Positions 41,864 to 44,865 of a DNA stretch of 64,000 nucleotides are shown here, piece after piece (the stretch's first letter is position 1; each line of letters starts with the position of its first letter). Source of the stretch: Polynucleobacter sinensis. Its GTDB lineage: Bacteria; Pseudomonadota; Gammaproteobacteria; Burkholderiales; Burkholderiaceae. The notes below the pieces were generated by a model, which saw only the letters and a list, made by a program, of their open reading frames with translations, was not told the origin of the DNA and did not search any database. The DNA lies in the NCBI RefSeq assembly GCF_001595985.1, contig NZ_LOJJ01000002.1, positions 248,001-312,000 on the forward strand, read 5' to 3'. A program made the translations under genes and the position numbers.

Positions 41864-43405
41864 ATGTCCTATCGTGAACTCGTTTTCACGGTACCTGCTG
41901 AAATCGCAGAGCCCCTAGGTGATGCGTTGTTGGAGGTGGGCGCCCTTTCAGTCACAGTAGAAGACGATGCCGCTGGTGGTTACGATGAGAACCCGCTCTA
42001 TGGTGAACCAGGCCTCTCTCCAGAGGTGCAAGCTTGGGATCGCTCCGCTGTTACCGCGCTTTTCAACCCTGAAGTTGACGACTCTGATGCCGAGAATTTT
42101 GTTTCAGAGCTACTGACTAGCCTCAAAGAACTTGGATTTCATCTCCCCAAGCCTCAAGAGAAGATTGTTGAAGAGCAAGATTGGGTGCGCTTAACCCAAA
42201 GTCAATTTGCACCAATTCAAATTGGTGAACGTATTTGGGTAGTACCGTCATGGCATGAAGCGCCGACTGATCCCAATGCTATTTGTTTGGCAGTAGATCC
42301 TGGGCTTGCCTTTGGTACCGGTAGCCACCCAACTACCCACCTTTGCTTGCTTTGGCTGGAACAAAATACCCAACTACAAAATCAAAGCCTACTTGATTAC
42401 GGTTGCGGATCTGGAATTTTGGCTATTGCTGCTGCGAAATTAGGCTGCAATCCCGTAGTTGGAACTGATATTGATCCCCAAGCGATGGTTGCAGCGCGGA
42501 GCAATGCCGAAATCAATCACACAGTGATTCGTTTTGTATTGCCCAATGAGAATGCGCCAGAACTTGCAGCAGAAACTAAATACGACATCGTGATGGCAAA
42601 TATTTTGGCCAACCCACTGCAAGTGCTTGCACCCGCCCTGGTCAATAAGATGCGCCCTGGTGGAAAAATTGTGCTGTCTGGAGTGCTCGCACGACAAGCT
42701 GAAGAGGTAATCGAAACCTATAGCCAATGGCTCAAGCTCTCCGTTTGGAAAGAGAGTGAAGGCTGGGTATGTCTGCATGGCACCTTAACGATCGATAGAG
42801 ATCAAGATCAGAAAGCAACTAAAAGCACAAACTCCCCTGTGCCGGCTCAAAAAAAAAGTCTTAAATTCATTCTCCTGAGTCTATTTTTCTTAGTGCTCCT
42901 TATTTTTGGTGAGCATCTATCCAGAAACTCTCTATTACCAATGCTTGCCACACGTGTTGATGGCAGTTCTCATTCAATGGCAACAACTGCTTTTGCACTT
43001 TTGCAGAAACTAGATGAAAAACTTTGTCACGCACTAGGGTGCATCAATCGCCCTGTAAGCGATTTTTCCGCGTGGAAAATAACTGCGGTCACTCTTGCAC
43101 CTGAAAACGCGCGAGAGGCCCTTAAAAACGCTTCAAATCAATCAACGCTGCAAGTTGAAATACAAAATCGCCTAGCAATTCCCGTTTTATTCCCAAATTT
43201 AGAAATTTCCCTCACAGATACCGACGAATCTGAGATCAAAATCATTCAACTTGCCCCTGATGAGTGGTTACCAAATATCTGGAAAGAGGCCAATCCTGAT
43301 TTTTTACGCCAAGGCGCACCCTCAGGTGAAATATTTCAATCGGAACTCAAGCTTTTACTCCCGCAAAATGCTGCAGGCTACCGTGTCAGAATTTTTTATC
43401 CCTAA
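41864..43405 (+). CDS. prmA: PrmA ribosomal protein L11 methyltransferase fused to a membrane/DUF3426 domain
   Basis: Residues 1 to about 305 are PrmA, which trimethylates ribosomal protein L11: VDPGLAFGTGSHPTTHLCL, LLDYGCGSGILAIAAAKLG (SAM motif near 176) and VMANILANPLQ. After a Lys/Ser linker comes a membrane helix at about 333-349 (LKFILLSLFFLVLLIFGE) and a DUF3426-like domain (CHALGCINRP, LFPNLEISLTDTDE, PDEWLPN). In relatives DUF3426 is usually a separate protein starting with a zinc ribbon, and the ribbon is absent here. A nine-A run (42849-42857) lies at the junction. The 513-residue length is far above ordinary PrmA (about 295). Confidence 0.88.
   Translation: MSYRELVFTVPAEIAEPLGDALLEVGALSVTVEDDAAGGYDENPLYGEPGLSPEVQAWDRSAVTALFNPEVDDSDAENFVSELLTSLKELGFHLPKPQEKIVEEQDWVRLTQSQFAPIQIGERIWVVPSWHEAPTDPNAICLAVDPGLAFGTGSHPTTHLCLLWLEQNTQLQNQSLLDYGCGSGILAIAAAKLGCNPVVGTDIDPQAMVAARSNAEINHTVIRFVLPNENAPELAAETKYDIVMANILANPLQVLAPALVNKMRPGGKIVLSGVLARQAEEVIETYSQWLKLSVWKESEGWVCLHGTLTIDRDQDQKATKSTNSPVPAQKKSLKFILLSLFFLVLLIFGEHLSRNSLLPMLATRVDGSSHSMATTAFALLQKLDEKLCHALGCINRPVSDFSAWKITAVTLAPENAREALKNASNQSTLQVEIQNRLAIPVLFPNLEISLTDTDESEIKIIQLAPDEWLPNIWKEANPDFLRQGAPSGEIFQSELKLLLPQNAAGYRVRIFYP
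42848..42864 (+). other. slippery nine-A tract at the PrmA/DUF3426 junction
   Basis: Codons 329-331 are CAA AAA AAA, so the in-frame heptamer A AAA AAA is present. A -1 slip would read AAG TCT TAA and stop at 42862-42864, giving a 333-residue PrmA that ends exactly before the membrane helix. No convincing stem-loop is visible downstream. The alternative product is inference. Confidence 0.4.
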
Positions 43406-43458
43406 AAAACACTTCATTAGCAACTTCATTTCATTTTTTTATTAGAAAGTCACAATTT

Positions 43459-44418
43459 ATGGCCAGTTTGATCTGCGGCTCTATCGCTTACGACACCATC
43501 ATGAACTTTGAGGGCAAATTTGCCGATCAGATTCTGCCCGAGCAAATTCATATTTTGAATGTCGCCTTCCTGGTTCCAACGATGCGCCGCGAATTTGGTG
43601 GCTGCGCCGGGAATATTGCTTATAACCTTAGCTTGCTTGGTGGCGACCCCATCATCATGGCTACTGTAGGCGGCGATGCAGCACCTTACTTCAACCGACT
43701 TCAAGAACTCAAGATTGATGCAACGCATATTCGCCAAATTGAGCAAGCATTCACAGCTCAAGCCATGATCACAACCGATCAAGCAAATAATCAAATTACT
43801 GCCTTTCACCCTGGAGCAATGGGTGAATCTCACCTCAACCAAGTATCTGCAGTAATAGCAGAGCGTAGCAAGAATGGAAAAGGCGCCGCAAAGTTTGGAA
43901 TTGTTGCGCCAGATGGCCGCCAAGGTATGTGGGAACATTGCCATCAACTAGCGCAAGCAGGTATTCCATTTGTGTTTGATCCAGGCCAAGGCTTACCCAT
44001 GTTTAATGGTTCCGAATTATTGGAGCTCGTTGAAATGGCCAGTTATTTAGCCGTCAATGACTATGAAGGCGAAATGCTTTCCCAAAGAACGGGCCTAAGC
44101 TTGGCAAAAGTAGCTGAAAGAGTGAAGGCCTTAATCGTCACCAAGGGAGCTGAGGGCGCAGATATCTACTTTGAAGGTAAATGCATCGCAATTCCGCCCG
44201 TCCCAGCGGCAAAAGTAGTTGATCCAACCGGTTGCGGTGATGCATTCCGCGGTGGATTACTGTTTGGACTTGAAAACGGCATGGATTGGGAAACTACCGG
44301 TCGTCTCGCCAGCTTGATGGGTTCGATCAAAATCACCCATCAGGGACCACAAAATCATCAAATCAGCAAAGAAGAGATTGCCACCCAATTTAAATCCGCT
44401 TTTGGGTTTGCGCTCTAA
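43459..44418 (+). CDS. PfkB-family carbohydrate/nucleoside kinase
   Basis: A 319-residue ribokinase-fold kinase. FGGCAGNIAYNLSLLGGDP is the substrate side, and VVDPTGCGDAFRGGLLFGL near residue 253 is the second PfkB signature with the catalytic Asp in GCGDAF. LIVTKGAEGADIYFEGK precedes it. Betaproteobacterial homologues at the accC-prmA locus are often annotated as adenosine kinase or sugar kinase; the substrate cannot be decided from sequence. It ends the aroQ-accB-accC-prmA run. Confidence 0.88.
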   Translation: MASLICGSIAYDTIMNFEGKFADQILPEQIHILNVAFLVPTMRREFGGCAGNIAYNLSLLGGDPIIMATVGGDAAPYFNRLQELKIDATHIRQIEQAFTAQAMITTDQANNQITAFHPGAMGESHLNQVSAVIAERSKNGKGAAKFGIVAPDGRQGMWEHCHQLAQAGIPFVFDPGQGLPMFNGSELLELVEMASYLAVNDYEGEMLSQRTGLSLAKVAERVKALIVTKGAEGADIYFEGKCIAIPPVPAAKVVDPTGCGDAFRGGLLFGLENGMDWETTGRLASLMGSIKITHQGPQNHQISKEEIATQFKSAFGFAL

Positions 44419-44500: not shown

Positions 44501-44865
44501 TTAAGGACGTGTGCCAGTTGGGAAGGGCCAAGCAGCGGCTGGATTCAACGTAGTTGAAGCGGCAGCTTTTTTAGCCACGGGCTTTTTTACAGCTTTGCCC
44601 GCTTTCTTCGCAGCAGGCTTACTTACTTTTTTTTTGCAGCTGGACGCTTTTTAGCAGCAGCTTTTTTAGCAGCAGGACGCTTCTTAGCTACTTTTTTAGC
44701 AGCAGGCTTCTTAGCAGCAGCTTTTTTAGCAGCAGGACGCTTCTTAGCTACTTTTTTAGCAGCAGGCTTCTTAGCAGCAGCTTTTTTAGCAGCAGGCTTC
44801 TTAGCAGCTACTTTTTTCTTTGCAGCTGGTTTCTTTGCAGCAACTTTTTTCTTGGCGATTGCCAT
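44501..44865 (-). CDS. histone H1-like Lys/Ala-rich DNA-binding protein, frame changes at a poly-A tract
   Basis: The zero frame (44623-44865) gives 80 residues, MAIAKKKVAAKKPAAKK and then repeats of the AAKKPAAKK type, ending in AAKKK and a TAA. This composition is that of bacterial H1-like nucleoid proteins. The -1 frame continues from the poly-A tract for 41 residues (VSKPAAKKAGKAVKKP, then ASTTLNPAAAWPFPTGTRP) to a TAA at 44501-44503, just before a terminator. The full protein would have 121 residues. AAGGAG precedes the ATG. Either a -1 frameshift is used or one A is missing in the sequence, or the locus is phase variable. Both products could be made. Confidence 0.8.
44597..44632 (-). 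promoter_or_regulatory. candidate -1 programmed frameshift signal
   Basis: On the minus strand: slippery heptamer A AAA AAG in the zero frame (44632-44626), a 7-nt spacer TAAGTAA containing the zero-frame stop, then stem GCCTGCT, 8-nt loop, stem AGCGGGC (44618-44597; seven pairs, one of them G-U). The heptamer is the one used by E. coli dnaX, and the spacing is in the usual 5-9 nt range. Confidence 0.6.
44651..44796 (-). repeat. 60-bp tandem repeat inside the histone-like gene
   Basis: Positions 44651-44710 and 44711-44770 are identical 60-bp units, followed by the first 26 bases of a third (44771-44796). Each unit encodes 20 residues of Lys/Ala/Pro repeat. Copy number is therefore free to change in frame. 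Confidence 0.92.

Follow-up and report, generated by a model that had tools for sequence, protein, structure and literature searches.

Among the described systems closest to the site reported here is the dnaX gene of Thermus thermophilus (tau/gamma), in which, according to the available parts of PMC1088944 and PMC5009743, one intact open reading frame carries a late run of nine A's (A9) with nearby stops in the other frames, and slippage at the run yields a shorter product. The available text of PMC1088944 holds that where all homologues keep such a run at nine, purposeful slippage is very likely. Another layout is that of tssM1 of Citrobacter rodentium, where, in the accessible part of PMC4256274, a run of eleven A's precedes a stop and transcriptional frameshifting restores a long membrane protein, both forms being needed. 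In Escherichia coli dnaX, a slippery lysine tract, A_AAA_AAG, directs a -1 ribosomal shift to a short form (PMC3711429, sections available). On the protein side, ZitP-type zinc-ribbon proteins combine a cytoplasmic N-terminal part, one helix and a DUF3426 domain predicted to be periplasmic, and the DUF3426 of ZitP matters for pilus biogenesis (PMC5182063, portion available).

Examination of the window, the whole stretch of 64,000 nucleotides analysed here, revealed a gene of the genus Polynucleobacter in which prmA, coding for the ribosomal protein L11 methyltransferase, is fused to DUF3426 with nine A's at the junction. The likeness to Thermus dnaX lies in the intact reading frame, the A9 in the coding strand, the nearby stops in both other frames (seen over 105 relatives) and a shorter product; slippage has been demonstrated in Thermus and is predicted here, and the two differ in that the gene is another one, whose short form would lose a membrane helix and the outer domain. 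We consider it probable that programmed slippage, mainly by RNA polymerase, gives both soluble and membrane-anchored PrmA from this gene. The features concerned are the following.

41864..43405, plus strand: prmA-DUF3426 fusion gene, 513 amino acids (open reading frame; PF06325, PF11906 and TIGR00406 matches)
42849..42857, plus strand: nine-A run (CAA AAA AAA A), candidate slippage site (sequence, junctions of relatives, codon control)
42856..42864, plus strand: -1 frame past the run, AAG TCT TAA; the TAA at 42862-42864 closes a 333-residue product
42866..42922, plus strand: predicted membrane helix, residues 335-353 (hydropathy; a single helix, 329-361, in the structure model)
42977..43390, plus strand: DUF3426 domain (PF11906; residues 372-509), lacking the zinc ribbon that relatives outside the genus carry
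44623..44865, minus strand: histone HC2-like gene whose 3' end holds a second conserved A9 (T9 on the plus strand, 44627-44635); HC2 match below the Pfam cut-off

The PrmA part matches PF06325 above the cut-off at residues 3-307 and the prmA equivalog TIGR00406 with 232.8 bits (cut-off 183.15), while residues 372-509 match PF11906 with 39.1 bits (cut-off 27.7). Between them, the best 19-residue hydropathy window falls at residues 335-353. An AlphaFold2 model of the DUF3426 part (mean pLDDT 86.4) consists of helices and a strand-rich domain, with residues 329-361 forming one helix; a fold search found no PDB match for it at E 0.001 or better. The arrangement resembles that of the ZitP-type proteins, except that a Pfam search found no zinc ribbon in the fusion protein, PrmA standing in its place. 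Plasmid records gave 40 matches, none with 80% query cover, and among the matches listed (the best 5 of 40) it was the PrmA part that matched.

Over the run the frame reads CAA AAA AAA AGT CTT AAA. The initial annotation had placed the nine A's in the CAA AAA AAA codons of the fused gene, and had read from them that a -1 slip passes to AAG TCT TAA and ends a 333-residue protein ahead of the membrane helix; sequence and in-silico transcripts bear this out. A transcript with ten A's codes for the 333-residue product, and those with eight and eleven A's code for 337 and 338 residues with a few out-of-frame residues at the C-terminal end, the hydrophobic stretch being lost in all three. An internal promoter or terminator as the cause of the run was rejected: no sigma-70-like match occurs in 42600-43500, and the single weak terminator-like match, on the minus strand at 42824-42843, adjoins the run without using it as its T tract and is of a kind of which 1.0 is expected by shuffling.

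Relatives outside the genus carry prmA and DUF3426 as two genes. At the junction, the eight outgroup loci have no run of six A's or more, and the six downstream genes read among them all start, by eye, with CxxC pairs. The deepest lineages assigned to the genus have a separate short gene after prmA, coding for a membrane helix and DUF3426-like sequence without the zinc ribbon (four read), and the remaining members are mostly fused. Parsimony on the DNA tree requires three changes between the fused and separate states and eight changes in the A9 state, or nine of the latter on the protein tree.

A locus search at E 1e-15 found a match in 182 of 186 genomes of the genus, and the junction survey covered 191 loci with 151 distinct junctions. 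These counts exclude ten outgroup loci (L039-L046, L120, L121) and skip 13 others, namely five on truncated contigs, seven from separate-gene species, and L189, which was read separately. Seventy-five loci came from a named collection, in which the isolates are Polynucleobacter except one of two outgroups; many of the others are metagenome bins. The criterion for a fused gene was the absence of a stop over 100 codons from the GWV motif, and L026, L199 and L145, with later breaks, and L154, at a contig end, are accordingly scored as fused; the tree set (n=149) leaves out L145 and L170.

Alignment of the junction in related strains, which the initial annotation had proposed as a check, showed the run kept as A9 (118) or A10 (1) in 119 of the 151 distinct junctions, that is in most though not all homologues. 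Of these, 116 are fused and three have a stop right after the run. Length is almost constant, the only other runs of at least eight A's being two of A8, whereas the linker around the run varies in length and sequence. In the fused genes the run starts at the second codon base in 105 cases, the third in six and the first in five (four A9 and the A10), and the versions in the two rarer phases encode other residues. The sequences are related, and the species are not independent events.

Since a set of genes picked by A9 is circular for the run codons, the codon analysis was repeated on 113 rows defined by a protein motif, [QE]K[KR] with S, T, R, G or V as the next residue. In these rows Gln is CAA in 112/112, the first Lys AAA in 113/113 and the second AAA in 107/112, with 0, 0 and 4 synonymous changes, respectively. 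On the same rows and tree, 68 two-fold control columns in PrmA have 5 or more synonymous changes each (median 16.5), the three Lys columns having 6, 9 and 16. Per base, we counted 0-1 changes at offsets 0-7, then 5 and 4 at offsets 8-9, against 15-36 upstream at offsets -24 to -3; the flanking bases are slow too (7 and 5 changes at offsets -2 and -1, 6 at offset 10). Serine after the lysines is always AGY (78/78; background 0.38) and arginine always AGR (11/11; background 0.13), which keeps the ninth A. Judged by the synonymous-change, per-base and AGY/AGR counts, the run is constrained at the nucleotide level, and nine A's are kept, beyond what two lysines ask for.

The -1 stop is close as well. 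Among the 105 A9-bearing genes in the predominant phase, the first -1 stop lies at a median of 5 nt, compared with 53 nt in synonymous shuffles; it is found at exactly 5 nt in 85 genes (30% of shuffles have it no farther off than 5 nt) and within 25 nt in 94% (38% of shuffles). Codon +4, just before this stop, ends in T in 90/105 while its residue varies between Leu, Phe, Pro, Ile, Val, Ser and Thr. In the +1 frame the enrichment is modest, with a stop within 25 nt in 88% against 69% of shuffles, and stops at 5 nt or less are rarer than expected (9% versus 41%). Five of the 116 A9-bearing fused genes have their -1 stop 68-154 nt off. On this comparative evidence, the run, the close -1 stop and the domain boundary are constrained across most of the genus.

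These runs stand in a genome otherwise poor in them. The 2,318,061 bases hold seven A9 places, 13-16 fold fewer than the 90-115 expected under Markov models of order 1-5 of the window, and comparably few are present in most other genomes of the genus apart from the deep branches, G075 (98) and G086 (30) being among the exceptions. In G075, 87 of the matches are forward and 11 reverse, possibly an assembly or insert effect. Another coding A9 of the same genome served as control, in a gene presumably akin to 5-formyltetrahydrofolate cyclo-ligase: none of 29 orthologues read (30 found) has A9, and three have A8. A further A9 of the genome lies near the start of a regulator gene (G000:C5:136963-136971, L220), which we take to be FNR/CRP-like; this gene was dropped as a second control, as it has no clear orthologue in 30 congeners, matches in other genomes having 32-40% identity.

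The initial annotation had held that homologues with a broken A run would argue against a function; such genes do occur, A9 being absent from 23 of 139 distinct fused junctions and from L189, and the other 116 keep it. Fusion is therefore possible without A9. The genes lacking it fall into three early-branching groups (L182-L185; L170, L186, L188 and L190; L191-L193, L195 and L196), one subclade with AQKKG at the junction (L072, L075, L079, L107, L111, L112 and L116), two single species whose sisters have A9 (L177 and L180) and one broken gene (L145 of G085), so the claim is confined to the larger part of the genus. The seven genes of the AQKKG subclade have their -1 stop 50-53 nt off and their +1 stop at 4 nt, or in one of them at 10 nt; five of the seven read CAA AAA AAG, i.e. 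A_AAA_AAG. The DUF3426 part is broken by stops or frame breaks in G017 (L027, L037), G023 (L026, L038) and G085 (L145, L194), all single-contig genomes of 1.6-1.9 Mb, and in G085 PrmA is broken too.

Three species (L033, L156 and L157 of G005, G078 and G084) have a reversed default frame: PrmA, reading QLKKKLLN, terminates just past the A9, and it is the -1 frame that opens 197 DUF3426 codons. The dN/dS of that frame is 0.10, 0.13 and 0.20 over the three pairs, dS being saturated in the first two; by these ratios, DUF3426 of the reversed species is under purifying selection. Like the fused relatives, that frame retains AQKKT, the shift having taken place in the linker upstream. Their sister L030 has A10 and is fused in frame. 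The layout resembles that of Citrobacter tssM1 as far as PMC4256274 describes it, with the differences that the window species has the opposite default frame and that the run has nine A's, not eleven. DUF3426 may alternatively have an internal start in the reversed species: TTG codons overlap the PrmA GWVC codons in all three, and the interval from run to helix holds a GTG in L033 and a TTG in L157, and in L156 no ATG, GTG or TTG.

The initial annotation had suggested that slippage could serve to make soluble enzyme from the fusion gene, a suggestion strengthened by the constraint on the run, the close -1 stop and the three species with the short form as default. The A9 in prmA would serve programmed slippage, most likely by RNA polymerase. 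A transcript that keeps nine A's would give the PrmA-helix-DUF3426 fusion, and one with an A more or less would leave the frame and meet a stop a few codons on, ahead of the helix, giving soluble PrmA; the slippage rate would then set the ratio of cytosolic to membrane-anchored L11 methyltransferase from one gene. That slippage occurs, its rate, the existence of both products and the role of the membrane form we infer from the DNA sequence.

The same two products could come from ribosomal -1 frameshifting at A_AAA_AAA, an X_XXY_YYZ heptamer that is in frame in every phase seen, and the A_AAA_AAG of five of the seven AQKKG-subclade genes is that of E. coli dnaX. We regard this as rather unlikely. 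Seven A's would do for ribosomes, yet nine are held, including bases beyond the heptamer, and the stimulators of frameshifting are scarce over 105 relatives: Shine-Dalgarno-like 4-mers within 20 nt upstream occur in just two, and downstream structures other than pseudoknots are weak (mean z -0.59; 16/105 below -2). In these respects, and in its nine A's, prmA departs from E. coli dnaX. In the window itself, where the initial annotation had seen no strong downstream stem-loop, z is -1.71 and 13 of 200 shuffles are equally good, so that reading stands. E. coli heptamers without stimulators gave 2.1-10 times the 0.055% background, and some proven frameshift sites have no known stimulator (both from the available part of PMC4066793). 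The direction of the shift speaks against transcriptional slippage, being -1 throughout, in fused and reversed species alike; a -1-only direction is a mark of ribosomal frameshifting in the accessible text of PMC3711429 (section 10), and the modest +1 enrichment, with stops scarce at 5 nt or less, argues against two-way transcriptional slippage, which predicts more. The direction is not decisive, however, because the -1 frame corresponds to one A added to the transcript, and according to the available text of PMC5574713 80% of the insertions made during transcription in E. coli and Buchnera add one nucleotide, with A or T runs as the place of those in homopolymers. The initial annotation had called transcriptional slippage as likely as ribosomal; with nine A's held where ribosomes need seven, and stimulators lacking, we lean somewhat further to the transcriptional side, although a constant -1 shift would suit ribosomes as well.

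It is quite improbable that selection plays no part and slippage is tolerated, the run having arisen by chance and rescuing indels in the linker as poly-A tracts do in insect endosymbionts (PMC5009743, part available). The frame difference between the sisters L030 (A10, fused) and L033, L156 and L157 (A9, stop) would suit such a history, as would G017, where an A8 run goes with a decayed DUF3426 containing further stops; left unexplained are the run and close -1 stop in more than 100 in-frame fusions in a genome otherwise poor in A9. A requirement for Gln-Lys-Lys ahead of the membrane helix, combined with shared ancestry, is a very unlikely source of the run. QKK is indeed frequent in the linker among the surveyed junctions, and lysines ahead of a helix suit the positive-inside rule, but the changes at the three codons are all below the lowest control column, and genes with the run in the other two phases hold nine A's though encoding other residues. 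Least credible of all is phase variation at the DNA level, with replication slippage toggling the anchor within a population: homopolymers are classic contingency sequences (PMC3711429, as available), yet the run is near constant in length, whereas drift in length would put roughly two cases in three out of frame.

A second A9 closes the neighbouring histone gene, and the parallel between the two sites drawn by the initial annotation is upheld. The gene's last codons are GCA AAA AAA AAG TAA; shifted by -1 there, the frame runs on into a conserved tail that contains AAAWPFPTG. A9 or more occurs in 58 of 67 distinct loci with a Lys-rich open reading frame at this place, and 99 loci located by WPFPTG, a set without the early-branching fused species that have no prmA run, comprise 86 A9, 2 A10, 10 A8 and 1 A6. 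The tail of L021 already lies in the zero frame. Both the prmA and the histone run have at least nine A's in 88 of the 99 and both are shorter in seven; the discordant loci are three with A9 in prmA and A8 in the histone gene and one with A9 and A6, respectively, and none is short in prmA alone. The A8 loci are L020, L069, L072, L075, L079, L105, L107, L111, L112 and L116, seven of them also without the prmA A9; they belong mostly to one subclade and hence represent few independent events. This joint change of the two runs lends the prmA site further weight, with most of the signal coming from one subclade. The co-varying lengths hint at a lineage-wide setting of RNA polymerase slippage or at joint control. 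That prmA and the histone gene, 1.8 kb apart, form a linked pair of slippage switches in an A9-poor genome is a speculative idea that we think unlikely to hold; if it does, the prmA switch would split a ribosome-modifying enzyme between cytosol and membrane, and the histone switch would add or omit a conserved tail.

Few cases of programmed slippage are known in ordinary bacterial genes. Screens for broken frames would by design miss an intact reading frame such as the prmA fusion. The open-access literature on Polynucleobacter slippage, transcriptional slippage in Burkholderiales, prmA slippage and frameshifting, and DUF3426, including the available part of PMC9227772, yielded no report of the prmA site, and no prior report was found there of a ribosomal-protein methyltransferase split between cytosol and membrane in this way; prmA, L11, DUF3426 and Polynucleobacter are not mentioned in the accessible sections of PMC3711429. 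The more than 100 related genes form a natural series of A9, A10, A8 and interrupted runs, of both default frames and of loss, with which transcriptional slippage could be tested against ribosomal slippage in species that grow in culture. The finding in prmA also points to the second conserved site, in the neighbouring histone gene.
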